Assembly (NCBI RefSeq): GCF_000255295.1
Contig: NC_017030.1
Span: 1,240,001-1,304,000 of the forward strand
Direction of reading: 5' to 3'
DNA length: 64,000 nt
Origin: Corallococcus coralloides DSM 2259
GTDB taxonomy: Bacteria > Myxococcota > Myxococcia > Myxococcales > Myxococcaceae
Of the stretch, positions 28,691-36,371 are shown in pieces. Position 1 is the first letter of the stretch, and each line of letters starts with the position of its first letter. A program made the position numbers and the translations under genes. Under the pieces are notes generated by a model, which was given only the letters and a program-made list of their open reading frames with translations, made no database searches and was not told the DNA's origin.

Positions 28691-29042
28691 GGGCGTCCTC
28701 GTTCTTTCCGTCGCGGGAGAGGGGAACCGCGCCGCGACCTCCTTCTCAAGATGACCGCCCGGGTCGGCTCCGGGGAGCGCGGTGCCCTCGCGCACGGGCC
28801 TGTCCGGGCGCCTGTCATGGGGCCGTGCGTCATTCGCCTTCCGGACACATTGCGAGCGATAGGCTTACCGCGTGCGCGTGCTTTTTTGAGCGTGACTGAA
28901 GGGGCGCTGCGTCAAAACACAAACGTGAAACTTGTGCTTGTCGTCAGTGTGTCTTTGCTCCGAGCATGCCGCCTTCCCGCTGCTTCGCGGGCCGCGGGCG
29001 CTTCCCTGCGGCCCATGCGGAGCGGCCTCGCGGAGGAACGAC
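28691..29042. other. 352-bp divergent intergenic region
   Basis: The region separates the decapeptide-repeat gene from the beta-helix lipoprotein gene. A lower-GC patch at about 28905-28945, unusual for this window, probably contains promoters, but I see no convincing -35/-10 pair. No small gene or RNA fold was recognised. Confidence 0.4.
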
Positions 29043-30587
29043 ATGCCCCGTTTGCAGTGGACCCGCGCTTCGCGCGCGACCGTTCTGGCCCTGGTGGGGG
29101 CCCTCTCGCTGACCGCCTGCTCGGATGACGAGGACACCACGCCGGACTCGGGCGTGAAAGTGGACGCGGGTACAAAGACGGACGCAGGCACGGACACGGA
29201 CGCGGGCAGCGACGCGGGAAGCGTGGACACGGGCATTCCCTGGGACGGCGGCAGCGCGGGCGACTTCTCCTGCGAGGGCAAGACCCAGACGACGCTGAAC
29301 TTCGCGCCGGGCCAGGAGGAGGAGCTCCAGGACCAGGTGAACACCATGGCCGAGTGCACCACCATCACCCTGGCGGCGGGCACGTACACCTTCGACAACG
29401 CCATCACCATCCGCCAGAACGGCATCACGCTGGTGGGCGCGGGCAAGGGCACGAAGGGCGAGGGCACGGGCGGGGCGCAGAGCACGGTGCTGGTGTTCAC
29501 CGGCGCCGCGGCGAACTCCAACGGCCTGGACGTGGTGGGCAATCGCTTCACGGTGAGCGACCTGGCGGTGTGGAACGCGAAGAAGGACGCCATCCGCGTG
29601 GAGTCCTCCACCGACGTCGTGATGCGCCGCGTGCGCACGGAGTGGGCGGAGGCCGACAAGGAGAGCAACGGCAAGTACGGCCTGTACCCGGTGAAGTCCA
29701 AGTACGTCCTCATCGAGGACTGCGAGGCGTACAACGCCGCGGACGCGGGCATCTACGTGGGCCAGACGGAATACGCCGTCGTGCGCAACTGCGTGGCGAA
29801 GCAGAACGTGGCGGGCATCGAGATTGAAAACACGAAGTACGCCTACGTGCTGGGCAACACGGCCCAGGACAACACCACGGGCCTGGTGGTGTTCGACCTG
29901 CCGGGCAACCCCATCATGGGGACGGACATCCGGGTGAAGAACAACATCATCACCGGCAACAACCGGCACAACTTCGCGTCCGTCGCGAACAGCAGCAGCA
30001 CGGTGTCGCAGGTGCCGGCGGGCACGGGCACGTTCATGCTGGCGTCGCGCCGCGTGGAGCTGACGGGCAACACCTGGGGCAACAACAACACGGTGGACGT
30101 GGCGGTGCTGAGCGGCCTCACCATCGAGCCCAACGACAAGCTGTGGGAGGCGGGCGGCTTCAACTTCGCGAGCGCGGACATCTACATCCACGGCAACACC
30201 TTCCAGGGTGGCAGCGGCGACAACGTGGACAACGGCAACCTGAGCCCGCAGCTGCGGCCCCTGGGCGCGGCCCTGGCGGCGCTCTACACCTACGGCGAGA
30301 CGCAGGGCGCGAAGGGCGTGGAGCACCTGGTGTGGGACGGCGTGGACCCCTACGGCCATCCCCGCGCGGAGCTGAACCCCATCAACATCTGCTTCGCCGA
30401 CAACACGCTGCCCTCGGGCACCGTCAACGCCATCGCGGACCTGGACCTGGTGGCGGCGGGTCAGGCCGCGGCCACGGGCAACTTCGCGGGCGGGTGGGCC
30501 CTCACGCGGCACTACCCGGCCAACAAGGCGGAGTTCGCCTGCTCGGGCTTCAGCCCCGCGCTGACGATTGGCGACTTCATCCAGTAA
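29043..30587 (+). CDS. Parallel beta-helix lipoprotein (TIGR03805-like)
   Basis: The 514-residue protein has a lipoprotein signal with a lipobox ending LTAC at about residue 24, and an Asp-Ala-Gly-rich linker (about 36-62). A right-handed parallel beta-helix then runs through most of the rest. Stacked short repeats such as NGITLVGAGKG, VMRRVRTEWAE and ADAGIYVGQTEYAVVRN are typical. It lies directly upstream of a diheme-cytochrome-like lipoprotein. Members of this beta-helix family are known to occur in a two-gene pair with TIGR03806 proteins, of unknown function. A GGAGGAACGAC ribosome site supports the start. No catalytic residues can be assigned. Confidence 0.85.
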   Translation: MPRLQWTRASRATVLALVGALSLTACSDDEDTTPDSGVKVDAGTKTDAGTDTDAGSDAGSVDTGIPWDGGSAGDFSCEGKTQTTLNFAPGQEEELQDQVNTMAECTTITLAAGTYTFDNAITIRQNGITLVGAGKGTKGEGTGGAQSTVLVFTGAAANSNGLDVVGNRFTVSDLAVWNAKKDAIRVESSTDVVMRRVRTEWAEADKESNGKYGLYPVKSKYVLIEDCEAYNAADAGIYVGQTEYAVVRNCVAKQNVAGIEIENTKYAYVLGNTAQDNTTGLVVFDLPGNPIMGTDIRVKNNIITGNNRHNFASVANSSSTVSQVPAGTGTFMLASRRVELTGNTWGNNNTVDVAVLSGLTIEPNDKLWEAGGFNFASADIYIHGNTFQGGSGDNVDNGNLSPQLRPLGAALAALYTYGETQGAKGVEHLVWDGVDPYGHPRAELNPINICFADNTLPSGTVNAIADLDLVAAGQAAATGNFAGGWALTRHYPANKAEFACSGFSPALTIGDFIQ

Positions 30588-30611
30588 CCGCGGTCAGGGA
30601 GCGTGACACCC

Positions 30612-31853
30612 ATGTGGACGTCGTTCGTGAGCCCCCGTCTCTCCGTGGTGCTGCTGGCGCTGTCGCTGGCGGCCTGCGGTTCCTCCGACCCGGAAGGCCC
30701 CGGGCCCACAGCCGACTCGGGGACCTCCGTGCCGGATGCCGGAACGGAGGACGCGGGGGTTCCGGACGCGGGTGAACCGGATGCGGGCATGGATGCCGGA
30801 ACGCTCGATGCGGGCGTTCCGGACGCGGGGCCCGTGGACGCGGGGGCTCCGCTGGCCATCCCCAACGCGCTGTCGGGCTTCGGGCTGTTCACCGGAAGCC
30901 CGGCGGACGGGGGGCTCGTCCCGGTGGAGGGCAACGTGCCCTACACCCTGTCCACGCCGCTGTTCTCCGACTACGCGGTCAAGTCACGCACCCTCTCCAT
31001 CCCCCCCGGCAAGACGGCGCACTACCAGCCCGTGGACGCGCTGGACCTGCCGGTGGGGACGCTCATCACGAAGACGTTCGCCTTCCCGGCGGACCTGCGG
31101 AATCCAGACCAGGACGTGCGCTACATCGAGACGCGCGTCCTGGTGCGCCAGCCCTCCGGCTGGGAGGCATGGCCGTACGTCTGGAACACCGAGCAGACGG
31201 AGGCCACGCTGGCCACCGGCGGCCGTGTGCGCGACGTGACGTTCATCGACTCGGAGGGGGAGCCCCGGTCGTTCCGGTACGCGGTGCCCTCCAAGAACCA
31301 GTGCCAGCAGTGCCACCACCTGGTGGACGCGAAGGGCGATCAGGTGATGCATCCCATCGGGGTGAAGGCGCGCTACCTGCACCGCACGAACACCTACGGC
31401 GGCGTGGAGCGCGACCAGCTGGAGTACCTGGCGTCACTGGGCAAGCTGGACGGGCTGCCCGCCCAGGCGGAGCTGCCAAAGGCGCCGGACGCGTTCGACA
31501 CCCAGGCGGCGAACCTAGACACGCGGGCGCGCACGTACCTGGACATCAACTGCGCGCATTGCCACAACCCGAAGGGCACGGCGGGCATCACCAGCCAGCT
31601 GTTCCTCAACTTCGACAACACGAGCGTGTTCAACCTGGGCGAGTGCAAGCGCCCCGGCTCGGCGGGCAGCGGCGTGGGCGGCGATTTCGACATCGTCCCC
31701 GGCAAGCACGACGAGTCCATCCTCTGGTACCGGCTGCACACGGAGGAGTCCGGCAAGATGATGCCGCAGATCGGCCGCACGATTCACCACGCGGAGGGCG
31801 CGAAGCTCATCGAGGATTGGATCAACGCCATGCCGGTGAAGGCCTGCAAGTAG
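30612..31853 (+). CDS. Diheme cytochrome c-like lipoprotein (TIGR03806-like)
   Basis: A 413-residue lipoprotein (lipobox LAAC near residue 22) with an Asp-Ala-Gly-rich linker. The downstream domain contains LSTPLFSDYAVKSRTLSIPPG and two heme-type motifs, CQQCH and CAHCH. A later MMPQIGRTIHH segment may supply distal ligands. The start at 30612 is used, and a GTG nine bases upstream is possible. It begins 24 bases after the beta-helix gene and surely shares its transcript. The pair may carry out an extracytoplasmic redox step on a bound polysaccharide or other ligand, but this is speculation. Confidence 0.85.
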   Translation: MWTSFVSPRLSVVLLALSLAACGSSDPEGPGPTADSGTSVPDAGTEDAGVPDAGEPDAGMDAGTLDAGVPDAGPVDAGAPLAIPNALSGFGLFTGSPADGGLVPVEGNVPYTLSTPLFSDYAVKSRTLSIPPGKTAHYQPVDALDLPVGTLITKTFAFPADLRNPDQDVRYIETRVLVRQPSGWEAWPYVWNTEQTEATLATGGRVRDVTFIDSEGEPRSFRYAVPSKNQCQQCHHLVDAKGDQVMHPIGVKARYLHRTNTYGGVERDQLEYLASLGKLDGLPAQAELPKAPDAFDTQAANLDTRARTYLDINCAHCHNPKGTAGITSQLFLNFDNTSVFNLGECKRPGSAGSGVGGDFDIVPGKHDESILWYRLHTEESGKMMPQIGRTIHHAEGAKLIEDWINAMPVKACK

Positions 31854-31856
31854 CGC

Positions 31857-33143
31857 TCAGGCGGCCGGCGACGGGGGCTGGGGTTCCTGCTCCAGCCCCA
31901 CGTTGCTGGACGCGCGGTTGTAGACGGCCAGGTCCAGCAGGCCCTCCTCGCGGGCCACCAGGACGGGCACCAGCATCTGGCCGGTGACGTTGGTGAGGGT
32001 GCGCATCATGTCCAGCACCCGGTCGATGGCCAGCAGGTAGCCCAGCCCCTCCAGGGGCAGCCCCGCGGCGCTGAGGACGACGGTGGTCATCACCACCGCC
32101 GTTCCGGGCACGCCCGCGGTGCCGAAGCTGCCCAGCACGGACGCCAGCAGGATGATGAAGAGCTGGGGCGCGGACAGCGTCAGGCCGAAGTACTGGGCGA
32201 TGAAGAGCGACGTCATGGCCGGGTAGATGGCGCCGCAGCCGTCCATCTTGATGCTGGCACCCAGCGGCACCGCGAACGCCGCGTAGTCCCGGTCCACGCC
32301 CAGGTTGTGGGTGACGCTGCGCAGGGCCACCGGCATGGACGCGAAGCTGGAGGAGCTGACGAACGCCACCTGCATGCCCGGCGCGGCGCCCCGGAAGAAG
32401 CGCAGCGGGTTGAGCCCGTGCGCCGCGAGCAGCCCGCCGTACACGAAGACGACGTGCACCGCGCACGCGAGGTACAGCGTGAGGACGAAGGTGCCCAGGG
32501 GCAAGAGGCGCTCGAAGCCGTAGGTGCCCACCAGCGCGGCGATGAGGCCGAAGGTGCCCAGCGGCGTCAGCTCCAGCACGAAGCGGGTGACTTGAATCAT
32601 CGCCTCGCTGGCCTCGCCCACGAGCTGCCGCAGACGCGCGGTGCGCTCCCCCAGCTTCACCAGCGCGAAGCCCAGCAGGCCCGCGAAGAAGATGACCTGG
32701 AGCATCTTGCCCTCCGCCAGCGCGGCGAAGGGGTTGGTGGGCACCACGTCCAGCAGCACCTGCACGGGGCCGGGCACCTGCCGGGGCTTGAAGTCGCTGG
32801 CCGCCTGGAGCGTGCCCACGCCCACGCCCGGCTTCGTGAGGGCGGCGATGCCCAGGCCCACGCCCACGGCCAGCGCGGCGGTGACGGCGAACCAGAGGAA
32901 GGTGCGGCCCCCCAGCGCCGCCACGCTCTTCTGGCCGCGCAGCGCGGACACCGCGTGGATGACGGCGAAGAACACCAGCGGGGTGGCGATCATCCGGATC
33001 AGCTGGACGTAGAGGGTGCCCAGCGGCTGGAGCCAGATGCCGGCGCGGTCGCCCAGCGCCCACCCGGCGAGCGCGCCCAGCACGAAGGCGCCCAGCACGC
33101 GCTGCCAGAAGGGAATGCGGAACCAGCGGGCCCAGAGCTTCAT
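31857..33143 (-). CDS. Dicarboxylate/amino acid:cation symporter (DAACS family)
   Basis: A 428-residue inner-membrane symporter with the GltP/DctA fold. It has about eight membrane helices plus hairpin loops. The serine-rich hairpin (AFVSSSSFASMPVAL), GVPGTAVVMTTVVL and the NVTGQMLVPVLVARE substrate/cation region are conserved. It probably imports glutamate, aspartate or C4-dicarboxylates with H+ or Na+. It converges with the cytochrome gene (stops three bases apart). Exact substrate is not clear. Confidence 0.92.
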   Translation of the reverse strand: MKLWARWFRIPFWQRVLGAFVLGALAGWALGDRAGIWLQPLGTLYVQLIRMIATPLVFFAVIHAVSALRGQKSVAALGGRTFLWFAVTAALAVGVGLGIAALTKPGVGVGTLQAASDFKPRQVPGPVQVLLDVVPTNPFAALAEGKMLQVIFFAGLLGFALVKLGERTARLRQLVGEASEAMIQVTRFVLELTPLGTFGLIAALVGTYGFERLLPLGTFVLTLYLACAVHVVFVYGGLLAAHGLNPLRFFRGAAPGMQVAFVSSSSFASMPVALRSVTHNLGVDRDYAAFAVPLGASIKMDGCGAIYPAMTSLFIAQYFGLTLSAPQLFIILLASVLGSFGTAGVPGTAVVMTTVVLSAAGLPLEGLGYLLAIDRVLDMMRTLTNVTGQMLVPVLVAREEGLLDLAVYNRASSNVGLEQEPQPPSPAA

Positions 33144-33305
33144 CGCGAGACACCTCTCACAGCGGCGGACGGGCAGACCCTAACCCCCTCGCGGGTCCGG
33201 CGCCGCGTTCCCCTGCGCGGGACGCCCCACATCATTGCGACCCGCTCCCTGGCCCCCTAGGCTTCTGCCCGCTTTTCCCCCCAATCCAATGCCGGGAGTG
33301 CTCCC

Positions 33306-33497
33306 TTGAAATTCACGAGCAAGGACGTGTCGAAGCTGCTGGAGGAAGTGAGCGGGTCCGAGGACCTGATGGGCCACGCCTGCGCGACGTCGTACCTCAA
33401 CGGCCAGCACTACACCTGGAGCGGTACCCAGTGGGTGGGCACCTACTTCCCGGTGCTCAAGTATCCGGTGGGCGAGGACTCGTCCGGCTCCTGCTAG
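33306..33497 (+). CDS. 63-residue candidate precursor peptide next to a subtilase
   Basis: Starting at TTG with a GGGAG site nine bases upstream, this small gene encodes an amphipathic helical N-terminus (KFTSKDVSKLLEEV). A Gly/Trp/Tyr-rich second half (QHYTWSGTQWVGTYFP) follows, ending in GEDSSGSC. There is no secretion signal. The next gene, 24 bases downstream on the same strand, is a compact subtilase. A charged leader-like helix, an aromatic C-terminal half, and an adjacent intracellular protease fit a ribosomal-peptide precursor. No radical-SAM, YcaO, lanthionine synthase or transporter gene is adjacent, so modification is unproven. No known precursor family is recognised. Confidence 0.7.
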   Translation: MKFTSKDVSKLLEEVSGSEDLMGHACATSYLNGQHYTWSGTQWVGTYFPVLKYPVGEDSSGSC

Positions 33498-33521
33498 TCG
33501 GTGTTTCAAGGCCCTGCCCCC

Positions 33522-34238
33522 ATGAAGGTCGCCATTGTGGACAGCGGTGTGTCGGTGGGCTTCCTTCGTGGGGCGGGGCTGTCGCTCGCCGGGGCCGCGA
33601 GCTTCACGGTGGACCGGGAGGCGCGGCGCCTGGAGTCCCGTGTCCACTCGCGTGAGGAGCTGGCGGCCTGGCGCGGCGGCGACTGCGTGTTGGAGGACCT
33701 GGAGGACCCGCACGGCCACGGCACCTCGGTGCTGAGCATCCTGACGGAGCAGGGCCGCCGTCCTGGTATCGACGTGGAGTGGTACGTCGCGCGCGTGCTG
33801 GACGGCCGGATGCGCGGCGATTCGCTGTGCCTGCTGGAAGCGCTGGAGTGGCTGACGCAGGACGTGCGGCCGGACCTCATCAACCTGAGCCTGGGCACCG
33901 TGGGCCGCGCCTTCGAGGCGCCCCTCACCGCGCTGCTGGACCGCGCGGTGGCGCAGGGCAGCCTGGTGCTCTGCGCCGCGGGCCCCGTGTCGGGCCTGCC
34001 GTCCGGGCTGCCGTCGGTGGTGACGGTGGCGGACGCGGCCATGGCCCACGCGCTGCGGAAGGGAGACATCGTGGACCACGTCGAGGACGCGGCCACGGTG
34101 CGCTTGCATGTGGACGGTGCCTGGGGCGAGCGCCCCATCACGAGCAGCTATGCGTGTGCCCTCGCGGCGGCGCGGGTGCTGCGCGAGGGCTGTCCTCCCG
34201 GGTGGCGGCGCGTCACCGCGTCACAGCGGACGCGGTGA
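33522..34238 (+). CDS. Compact cytoplasmic subtilisin-like (S8) protease
   Basis: The 238-residue protein contains a minimal S8 fold: Asp7 in VAIVDSGV, His66 in GHGTSV and Ser209 in ITSSYACA. The oxyanion-hole Asn of the usual AAGN motif is replaced by Pro155 (CAAGP). There is no signal peptide, prodomain or extra domain, so it probably stays in the cytoplasm. It is preceded by the candidate precursor gene. Subtilases of RiPP clusters (for example PatA/PatG) cleave leaders, and a similar job is inferred here. The start at ATG 33522 fits the domain, and a GTG at 33501 adds seven residues. Confidence 0.8.
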   Translation: MKVAIVDSGVSVGFLRGAGLSLAGAASFTVDREARRLESRVHSREELAAWRGGDCVLEDLEDPHGHGTSVLSILTEQGRRPGIDVEWYVARVLDGRMRGDSLCLLEALEWLTQDVRPDLINLSLGTVGRAFEAPLTALLDRAVAQGSLVLCAAGPVSGLPSGLPSVVTVADAAMAHALRKGDIVDHVEDAATVRLHVDGAWGERPITSSYACALAAARVLREGCPPGWRRVTASQRTR

Positions 34239-34256
34239 CCTTCGCCAGGGTGGACC

Positions 34257-36371
34257 TCAGGCCGGGACGCGGTCGTTGTCCTTGCGGTCCCAGTGCCGGT
34301 GCTTCGCGAGCGCCTGCGCGAACGCGGTGGCCAGCGCTGTTCCGGCCCCGGCCTTGGAGCCCGCGACGACGCCGGGCGCGGCCGGGTCGATTTCACAGGC
34401 CTTGAGCAGCTCCTCCGCGTCCTTGGACGCGCCCACCGTCTTGCAGTGCAGGTAGGCCTCCTGGACGAAGTGGCGCGACTCGCCGTCCTTCTTCAGCGTG
34501 GCCACGCTCGCGGCGCCGCCGGGGATGAAGACGCCGTCGTACTCCACGGAGGCCGTGGTCATGGCGCTCTTGTCCACCGGCACGTCCTTGCCGTTGGAGG
34601 CCTTCACCGTGCCCAGGCGCTTGGCGATGACCTTCAGCTGCGCGCCCCCGGCCTCCAGCTCCTTGCGCAGGGCCATCAGCTCGTCCGCGTCCACGCCGTC
34701 CGCGACGAGCACGCCAATCTTCCGCGTCTTGATGGACGGCGGCATGGCCATCTTCATCGCCTCCATGCTCAAGGCCTTGGACGCGGGAGGGCCCTTGGGC
34801 GTGACGGGCGTGGCCTTGGGTGCGGGCAGGCCCAGCCCTTCCGCCACGGCCGACACCAGCAGGGCGTCAATCTTCGCGAAGTGCTCCAGCACGCGCTCCT
34901 GGATGGCCTTCGTCTCCACCTTGCCCAGTTCGAAGCGGCACGCGGCGATGAGGTGCTGCTGCTCCGGTTCGGACAGGCTGCGGAAGAAGAGGCCCGCCTG
35001 GCTGTAGTGGTCGTTGAAGGAGGCGGAGCGCTCGCGCACCTTCTTCCCGCTCACCTGCTCCGGGTGGTGCACGTAGCCGCCCTGTTGCTGGGACGCGAGG
35101 AACGGGCAGCCACCGCCCAGCGAGTTGGGGAAGTAGTTGGCGCGGCCCACGTTGCTGGTGTGCCGGCCGAAGCCGTCCTGCTGGTGGTTGTGCACCGGCG
35201 CCACCGGGCGGTTGATGGGGATCTCCGCGAAGTTCGGCCCGCCCAGGCGCGTCAGCTGCGTGTCCAGGTACGAGAAGAGCCGCGCCTGCATCAGCGGATC
35301 ATCCGTGAAGTCGATGCCCGGCACGATGTTGGACACGCAGAAGGCGACCTGCTCCGTCTCCGCGAAGAAGTTGGTCGGGTTGCGGTTGAGCGTGAGCTTG
35401 CCCACGGGCTGCACCGGGGCAATCTCCTCCGGGATGATCTTCGTCGCGTCCAGCAGGTCCACGCCCAGCGCCTGCGCGTCCTTCTCCTCCAGGATTTGAA
35501 CACCCAGCTCGTACTCGGGGAAGTCCCCCTGCTCGATGGACTCGAAGAGGTCGCGGCGGTGGAAGTCCGGATCCTTGCCGGCGAGCTTCTGCGCTTCGTC
35601 CCAGACGAGCGAGTGCGTGCCCAGGAGCGGCTTCCAGTGGAACTTCACGAAGCGCGAGGTGTTCTTCTCGTCCACGAAGCGGAAGGTGTGGACGCCGAAG
35701 CCCTGCATCATCCGGAAGCTGCGCGGGATGGCGCGGTCGGACATGATCCACATGACCATGTGCATGGTTTCCGGGACGAGCGACACGAAGTCCCAGAAGG
35801 AGTCATGCGCCGTCTGCGCCTGGGGAATCTCGTGGTGGGGCTCCGGCTTGGCGGCGTGGACGACGTCGGGGAACTTGATGCCGTCCTGGATGAAGAAGAC
35901 GGGGATGTTGTTGCCCACCAGGTCGAAGTTGCCTTCCTCCGTGTAGAACTTCACCGCGAAGCCGCGCACGTCGCGCACGGTGTCCGCGGAGCCGCGCGAG
36001 CCCGCGACGGTGGAGAAGCGCACGAACACGGGCGTCTTCTTGGATGGGTCCTGGAGGAACTTCGCGCGGGTGTACTTCGCCTGGGATTCGTAGACCTGGA
36101 AGTAGCCGTGGGCGCCCGCGCCGCGCGCGTGGACGACGCGCTCGGGGATGCGCTCGTGGTCGAAGCGGGTGAGCTTCTCGCGGAAGTGGAAGTCCTCCAG
36201 GAGTGTGGGGCCGCGCGCGCCAATCTTGAGCGAGTCGTCGGTGTGCTCGACGCGGATGCCCTGGTCCGTGGTGAGGAAGTTGCCCGTGGGCTCCGAGCGA
36301 TCCCGCGCGAGCTGCTGGTCCTTGCTCTTCTCGTCGACGTGAACCGCGTCCGGGTGCTTCTGTGAGGTCAC
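34257..36371 (-). CDS. katE: Large-subunit (clade 2) catalase HPII type
   Basis: A 704-residue catalase that disproportionates hydrogen peroxide. The catalytic His lies in [11 protein letters not shown] and the proximal heme Tyr in [10 protein letters not shown]. The core spans about 20-560, and a C-terminal class I glutaminase-like flavodoxin domain (about 585-690; [14 protein letters not shown]) marks the large-subunit clade. The enzyme is expected to be a heat-stable tetramer. It converges with the subtilase gene. Large catalases are often induced in stationary phase, but no promoter element was identified here. Confidence 0.95.

Follow-up and report, generated by a model that had tools for sequence, protein, structure and literature searches.

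The peptide-subtilase locus

The analysed stretch of DNA (64,000 nucleotides, hereafter the window) belongs to a 10.08 Mb genome represented by one contig, and contains a short peptide gene followed on the same strand, with a gap of 24 bases between peptide stop and protease ATG, by the gene of a small subtilase. Both ORFs were retrieved as an earlier note on this DNA had read them, namely as a TTG-started 63-aa peptide located 24 bases before a 238-aa S8 protease. The following features were assigned:

33194-34255, no strand: discrete two-gene unit, the stretch missing at the empty site of genome G014 (comparison with G014)
33294-33298, plus strand: GGGAG, ribosome-binding-site-like, 7 bases 5' of the TTG (upstream sequences of relatives)
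33306-33497, plus strand: precursor peptide gene, 63 aa, with TTG start at 33306 and stop at 33495-33497
33306-33377, plus strand: putative leader, residues 1-24, common to the other peptides of the family; the border is similarity-based and not a mapped cleavage site
33378-33494, plus strand: putative core, residues 25-63, aromatic, with Cys26, Cys63 and Glu57-Asp58
33522-34238, plus strand: gene of the small S8 (subtilase) protease, 238 aa, ATG start, QhpE-like, apparently without signal or prodomain
33540-33542, plus strand: codon of catalytic Asp7 (alignment of relatives)
33717-33719, plus strand: codon of catalytic His66 (alignment of relatives)
33984-33986, plus strand: codon (CCC) of Pro155, where subtilisin has its oxyanion Asn (alignment)
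34146-34148, plus strand: codon of catalytic Ser209 (alignment of relatives)

The pair is flanked by two minus-strand genes, encoding a sodium:dicarboxylate symporter (31857-33143) and a catalase (34257-36371). The TTG start of the peptide is supported by the start codons of relatives, which align there as TTG, GTG or ATG, depending on the genome, and by the GGGAG at 33294-33298; the GC contents of the peptide gene by codon position are 0.51/0.46/0.94. For the protease, an alternative longer start exists (GTG at 33501), but the position of 33522 is occupied by ATG or GTG in relatives. The protease chain starts six residues ahead of the catalytic Asp and should therefore, as judged from the start position, be too short at its N terminus for a signal or prodomain, in keeping with the earlier note. 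The long minus-strand ORF at 33180-34109 presumably arises as a shadow ORF from GC-rich coding DNA. No structured RNA was detected at 33000-34500 at E values up to 0.1. Elsewhere in the window, the catalase, convergent with the protease, is large (704 aa) and has a DJ-1/PfpI-type C-terminal domain (Pfam), and two adjoining lipoprotein-like genes with Asp/Ala/Gly-rich "DAG" linkers locate at 28932-31853, the first with a right-handed beta-helix match and the second without a Pfam match.

Of 16 Corallococcus genomes, 12, the own one included, carry orthologues of both genes, and the named relatives of the window protease at 72-91 % identity belong to Corallococcus species or a Myxococcaceae MAG. 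In all 12 orthologous loci the two genes are adjacent, with the peptide directly upstream of the protease and its reading frame preserved; the spacing amounts to 24-26 bases in nine loci and to 106-160 bases in the three most divergent ones. Within the main clade (36 pairs), pS and pN are 0.187 and 0.082 for the peptide and 0.152 and 0.053 for the protease, and between the two clades (27 pairs) 0.346 and 0.263 for the peptide and 0.328 and 0.176 for the protease. Both genes are thus under constraint (pN < pS), that on the peptide being weaker between clades and clear within the main clade.

At the empty site of G014, window positions 33194-34255 are missing, the flanks are 33 bases apart and the genes for symporter and catalase nearly adjoin. 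Since this genome lacks both genes, the unit consists of just these two. In three further genomes devoid of the pair (G002, G005 and G015), the 5' end of the symporter gene and the catalase gene are still present, with other ORFs in between. The earlier note had proposed mining for homologous peptide/subtilase pairs, and had taken the lack of a neighbouring peptide gene in relatives as evidence against cleavage of the peptide by the protease. Such an absence was not encountered in any of the 12 loci, and homologous pairs were found both there and in a paralogous cassette (see below), in which related peptides are combined with a related protease. That peptide and protease are unrelated neighbours, co-transcribed by chance, would agree with their common strand and short gap, many bacterial neighbours being unrelated; this explanation was already disfavoured and is very improbable in view of the complete linkage, the absence as a two-gene unit and the linkage of the paralogues within the cassette.

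The peptide family and its paralogous cassette

A profile of the peptide (A1) was searched against 195 Myxococcota genomes and matched 18 of them. A pattern search of the examined loci (50-90 aa, "ED" near the end) yielded 57 distinct family peptides, 12 of the window type and 45 others. Exactly two Cys, none of them within the first 24 residues, occur in all 12 window-type peptides and in 44 of the 45 others, the remaining one having three Cys. Alignment of 20 peptides revealed invariant Ser9, Leu11, Leu12, Val15, Gly17, Ser29 and Glu57-Asp58 as well as a nearly invariant Cys63. Three peptides were scanned and matched no Pfam or NCBIfam family, just as no known precursor family had been recognised before.

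When window-type peptides are compared with those of the other types, similarity is higher over the first 24 residues than over the remainder in 540 of 540 pairs (means 0.47 vs 0.21). The same applies, without sorting, to 912 of 990 pairs among the 45 others, with 6 ties (means 0.76 vs 0.48), and to all ten pairs formed by the five peptides of the own genome. When sorted by core motifs into four types, a procedure which biases toward a leader/core result, the first 24 residues are more alike in 616/616 (four pairings) and 96/96 (other two) pairs. Within the window clade, conservation of leader and core is about equal (0.79 vs 0.74, the leader being higher in 51 of 66 pairs). Conserved first 24 residues followed by a variable remainder represent, as far as can be read from the sequences, the leader/core pattern of RiPP precursors, which is apparent across types and weak within the window type. 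As for the other hallmarks of RiPP precursors, a dedicated leader protease nearby is indicated solely by gene linkage (12/12 loci), and a candidate modifying enzyme, a GH57-DUF1611 fusion, is present in the paralogous cassette, no modifying enzyme being found among the scanned neighbours of the pair.

The cassette was identified in the own genome at locus L060 and comprises, on one strand, genes for three related peptides, a 994-aa fusion protein, an ABC exporter without a match to C39 peptidase, a 91-aa protein and an S8 protease about 55 % identical to that of the window. It recurs in further Corallococcus loci, with one to three peptides per cassette, and was found in three genera in all; cassettes with one whole peptide each are present in G026 (another genus) as well as in G106 and G105 (a third genus), the one in G106 displaying an additional partial peptide match and the one in G105 being split across two contigs. 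Between ABC exporter and protease, a conserved protein of some 76-96 aa is encoded that contains a single hydrophobic stretch (L060 8281-8556; L061 9386-9616), the 91-aa form of which, in L060, has no Pfam match; this small membrane-type protein might confer immunity or assist the exporter. A methyltransferase-type gene (Pfam; L060 15753-16790) lies about 1.5 kb upstream of the peptide genes of the cassette. It is also listed near L063 and is not apparent near L062 and L067, and may either belong to the tailoring genes or have no relation to the cassette.

The most conspicuous cassette protein is encoded as follows:

L060 10385-13369: GH57-DUF1611 fusion, 994 aa

Over residues 3-435 it aligns to GH57 structures (2b5d, E 1.2e-43), and Glu202 and Asp363 thereby coincide with the Glu and Asp of GH57 motifs that we take to be catalytic. 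Residues 787-842 match PDB 2g0t (E 3.1e-6), presumably a DUF1611-type protein, and the score against Pfam DUF1611 is 23.1 bits, just under the cut-off of 25. The P-loop GTDTVQGKFTT is invariant in all ten aligned rows. The DUF1611 identity rests on sequence, because AlphaFold2 modelled the C-terminal 555 residues too poorly for use (mean pLDDT 50.5). Of the 195 Myxococcota genomes, the 18 with the peptide family are also the ones with the full-length fusion; the remaining fusion matches, among those listed, cover the GH57 part only, as in ordinary branching enzymes, with G018 as the one exception. In this member of a fourth genus (L186, contig C863), a diverged C-terminal DUF1611-type piece at the contig end precedes an ABC gene and one more gene, and no S8 match was detected beside them in the 5.9-kb contig. 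From co-occurrence and gene order, it may be guessed that the fusion modifies the peptides, via sugar transfer or carboxylate activation. Among open-licence papers, none linking DUF1611 with RiPPs and none on a Corallococcus RiPP subtilisin together with a precursor peptide was found, and co-mentions of GH57 and RiPPs appeared incidental, as judged by title and first lines of the abstract.

The earlier note's statement that no modifying enzyme is adjacent applies to the pair, since neither an exporter nor a modifying enzyme was detected among the five window neighbours scanned (Pfam), but not to the family, the cassette of which provides the GH57-DUF1611 fusion and an ABC exporter. All 12 pair-bearing genomes also possess a cassette-type protease and family peptides other than those of the window type, three genomes have the cassette without the pair, and G014 has neither. 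This nested distribution, observed among close relatives and statistically weak, fits a dependence of the pair on the cassette. The RiPP cluster of the graspetide corallotide is likewise confined to Corallococcus and contains a graspetide synthetase and a 2OG oxygenase (PMC13097080); unlike there, neither enzyme was detected among the scanned L060 cassette genes. A function in defence was considered and discarded, as two peptides, two proteases and the fusion had no PADLOC match at E 0.01; the cassette exporter matches ATPase-type PADLOC models such as mad3, mad8 and AriA.

A third site of the own genome (L130 9646-9879; G000:C1, about 5.82 Mb) harbours an orphan family peptide of 77 aa, close copies of which are present in G006, G012 and G013 (L135-L137), and another orphan (L132) is found in G106. 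Profiles were used for inspecting these sites, since the rough gene finder had missed some genes (e.g., the L060 protease), and revealed no S8 match in the 19-kb stretches surrounding L130, L132, L135 and L137; at L136, an ordinary larger subtilase is located about 6 kb away.

Subtilases often need partners acting as inhibitors or folding helpers. The peptide could accordingly be a detached propeptide that inhibits the protease in trans or helps it to fold, instead of being its substrate, and its size and neighbourhood as well as the missing prodomain of the protease would suit such a role. This alternative is nevertheless unlikely: in the cassette, one protease is accompanied by up to three peptides with different cores and by an ABC exporter, the conserved end of the peptides is the N terminus and the core is variable, and the orphan peptides at L130, L132, L135 and L137 exist without an S8 match in the surrounding 19-kb stretches.

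The protease and its relation to QhpE

According to Pfam, the window protease is a single S8 domain, which passes the PF00082 cut-off of 21.8 bits narrowly with 26.9 bits (E 3.7e-6); the cassette protease matches with E 7.1e-10. The triad of Asp7, His66 and Ser209 reported earlier is invariant in 13/13 aligned relatives (A2), and the Pro reported in place of the oxyanion Asn recurs as Pro155 in 12/12 orthologues, the own one included. This Asn, typical of PF00082 but not universal, is absent in all 13 aligned relatives, and the aligned cassette proteases have Gly or Ala at its place, vs Pro155 in the window type. AlphaFold2 was given a single read-through chain of peptide and protease. In the protease part, most ten-residue blocks have pLDDT values of 83-96 (71 in one block, 56 at the last residue), and this part adopts a subtilisin fold, with Z 18.1-19.3, rmsd 2.6-3.1 and 191-216 aligned residues among the 50 best matches listed. 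The peptide is modelled with a helix at residues 5-15, at low confidence; residues 1-5, 15-42 and 44-69 are below pLDDT 50, so that the peptide is not reliably placed, and no confident contact between peptide and protease was seen in this chain.

The closest characterised analogue is QhpE, a cytoplasmic single-turnover leader peptidase that removes the 28-residue leader of QhpC before ABC export, as described in PMC7876137. For comparison, five QhpE proteins were taken from qhp loci of a plasmid collection, three of them annotated as S8 and two (Leisingera, Novosphingobium) assigned by place and alignment. QhpE (197-241 aa, n=5) is encoded by a small S8 gene in the same operon as its short precursor, which resembles the arrangement of the window pair, and an ABC transporter gene is annotated in 3/6 qhp loci, comparable to the ABC exporter of the window family's cassette. 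Both also lack the oxyanion Asn, which is missing in 5/5 QhpE and replaced by Pro in 4/5; in an ungapped count from the preceding strand, these four carry their Pro at the position of Pro155, although hhalign sets a two-residue gap there. Profile-profile comparison of A2 with the five QhpE gave a probability of 98.8 (E 1.2e-16), aligned over residues 60-170, and the five-QhpE profile matched 3/5 cassette proteases (E about 1e-15 to 1e-14), missing those of L060 and L061 at E 0.1. Two further observations concern the qhp loci: the likely QhpE of Leisingera (L177 9060-9716) is annotated as a hypothetical protein, and the qhp operon on a Cupriavidus basilensis plasmid (L176) has no QhpE annotated or matched within 12 kb, and a transposase gene downstream.

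Membership of the window protease in the QhpE family was rejected on score, tree and neighbourhood. With the QhpE model (NF049966), window and cassette protease score 59.8 bits (E 2.4e-16) and 68.3 bits (E 6e-19), respectively, both below the cut-off of 165 bits. The model also matches subtilases in 175 of 195 genomes, where most of the ORFs are far larger and none exceeds the cut-off, and in 4 of 14 control genomes; the QhpE profile taken alone is poor evidence, because ordinary subtilases match as well. In a tree, window and cassette proteases form a clade of their own (100/100), apart from QhpE and seven ordinary subtilases, and QhpE groups with two small Myxococcota subtilases (96/89) on long branches; with three long-branched groups, this tree demonstrates distinctness and not which two are sisters. 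The two small subtilases grouping with QhpE (L138 9913-10611; L139 1719-2429) are stand-alone proteins of other Myxococcota without apparent qhp genes in the gene lists. Unlike qhp loci, the scanned window and cassette neighbours include no radical SAM enzyme, monooxygenase or amine dehydrogenase, and a qhp neighbourhood (QhpA-D, QhpG) was not detected among five window and five L060 neighbours (Pfam) or the cassette proteins. Distant matches of the genome scan (L157-L161), ORFs of 409-1173 aa, resemble ordinary subtilases and were set aside. A plasmid search with the cassette protease returned weak matches in ten records, eight of them annotated as S8. By analogy, the window protease may, as a separate lineage, work like QhpE.

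Other RiPP pathways also employ subtilases. Leader removal, as proposed here, is a property of the lanthipeptide S8 proteases NisP, ElxP and AmyP, of which ElxP is cytoplasmic (PMC10885120); unlike for lanthipeptides, no lanthionine synthetase was detected among the scanned neighbours, and the three scanned peptides match no named precursor family. Cyanobactins had been named as precedent in the earlier note, which holds insofar as a subtilase is proposed to act on a RiPP precursor, as do PatA and PatG. These two cut at other recognition sequences, and PatG-type subtilases transamidate (PMC10885120). A cyanobactin-like system is not the nearest model, since no YcaO-type gene was matched among the scanned neighbours (five each of the window and L060), no PatE-like precursor is apparent among the three peptides, which match no named family, and the window protease, unlike PatA/PatG, is single-domain; QhpE is nearer with respect to profile matches, missing oxyanion Asn and presumed cytoplasmic action.

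Loss of the oxyanion Asn could alternatively have turned the protease into a transpeptidase or macrocyclase, with PatG-like ligation, or into a near-dead protein of mere binding function. In favour of this, none of the 13 aligned relatives has the Asn, the close structural matches listed include engineered ligases, besides ordinary subtilisins, and transamidation by PatG-type subtilases is documented (PMC10885120). On balance we regard this as quite improbable, considering that the triad is invariant, that the protein is a single S8 domain and that QhpE, likewise devoid of the Asn, is an active leader peptidase.

Proposed maturation and implications

The pair is best read as an orphan branch of a new two-Cys peptide family, and we consider it likely to be a precursor/leader-peptidase unit, composed of a RiPP-like precursor and a dedicated cytoplasmic leader peptidase, with export and modification probably contributed by the cassette in trans. 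By analogy with QhpE, the protease most likely cleaves the peptide. The precursor would consist of an N-terminal leader of about 24 residues followed by the variable aromatic two-Cys core; the neighbouring subtilase would stay in the cytoplasm, recognise the leader and remove it, as QhpE does for QhpC. Because the protease is devoid of the oxyanion Asn, cutting is proposed to be slow or to occur about once per molecule. Any modification of the core would probably take place in trans by the cassette, with the GH57-DUF1611 fusion as candidate enzyme, and the core, modified or not, would leave the cell in trans, probably through the ABC exporter of the paralogous cassette in the same genome. For these predators, a role of the secreted peptide in antagonism or signalling is plausible.

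A wider and rather doubtful proposal is that of a new RiPP class in Corallococcus and a few relatives, comprising two-Cys peptides with conserved Glu-Asp that are modified (glucosylated or acyl-activated) by the GH57-DUF1611 enzyme, cut about once per substrate by a subtilase devoid of the oxyanion Asn, and exported. The enzyme would here be bifunctional, combining a transglycosidase-type GH57 domain, equipped with the aligned catalytic-type Glu and Asp, and a DUF1611 P-loop domain, and the pair of the window would represent a detachable unit borrowing enzyme and exporter of the main cassette.

Relatives of peptide and protease beside an exporter and an odd fused enzyme point to an undescribed peptide-making system in predatory bacteria that are mined for antibiotics. 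Close relatives offer the pair, the cassette and the empty site, so that the question is directly testable. If the proposed reading is true, leader cleavage of the QhpE-like single-turnover kind, described for one enzyme-cofactor pathway, would extend to small peptides, a subtilase could cut a leader without an oxyanion Asn, and GH57, a sugar-polymer enzyme fold, would form in fusion with DUF1611 a possible peptide-modifying enzyme.
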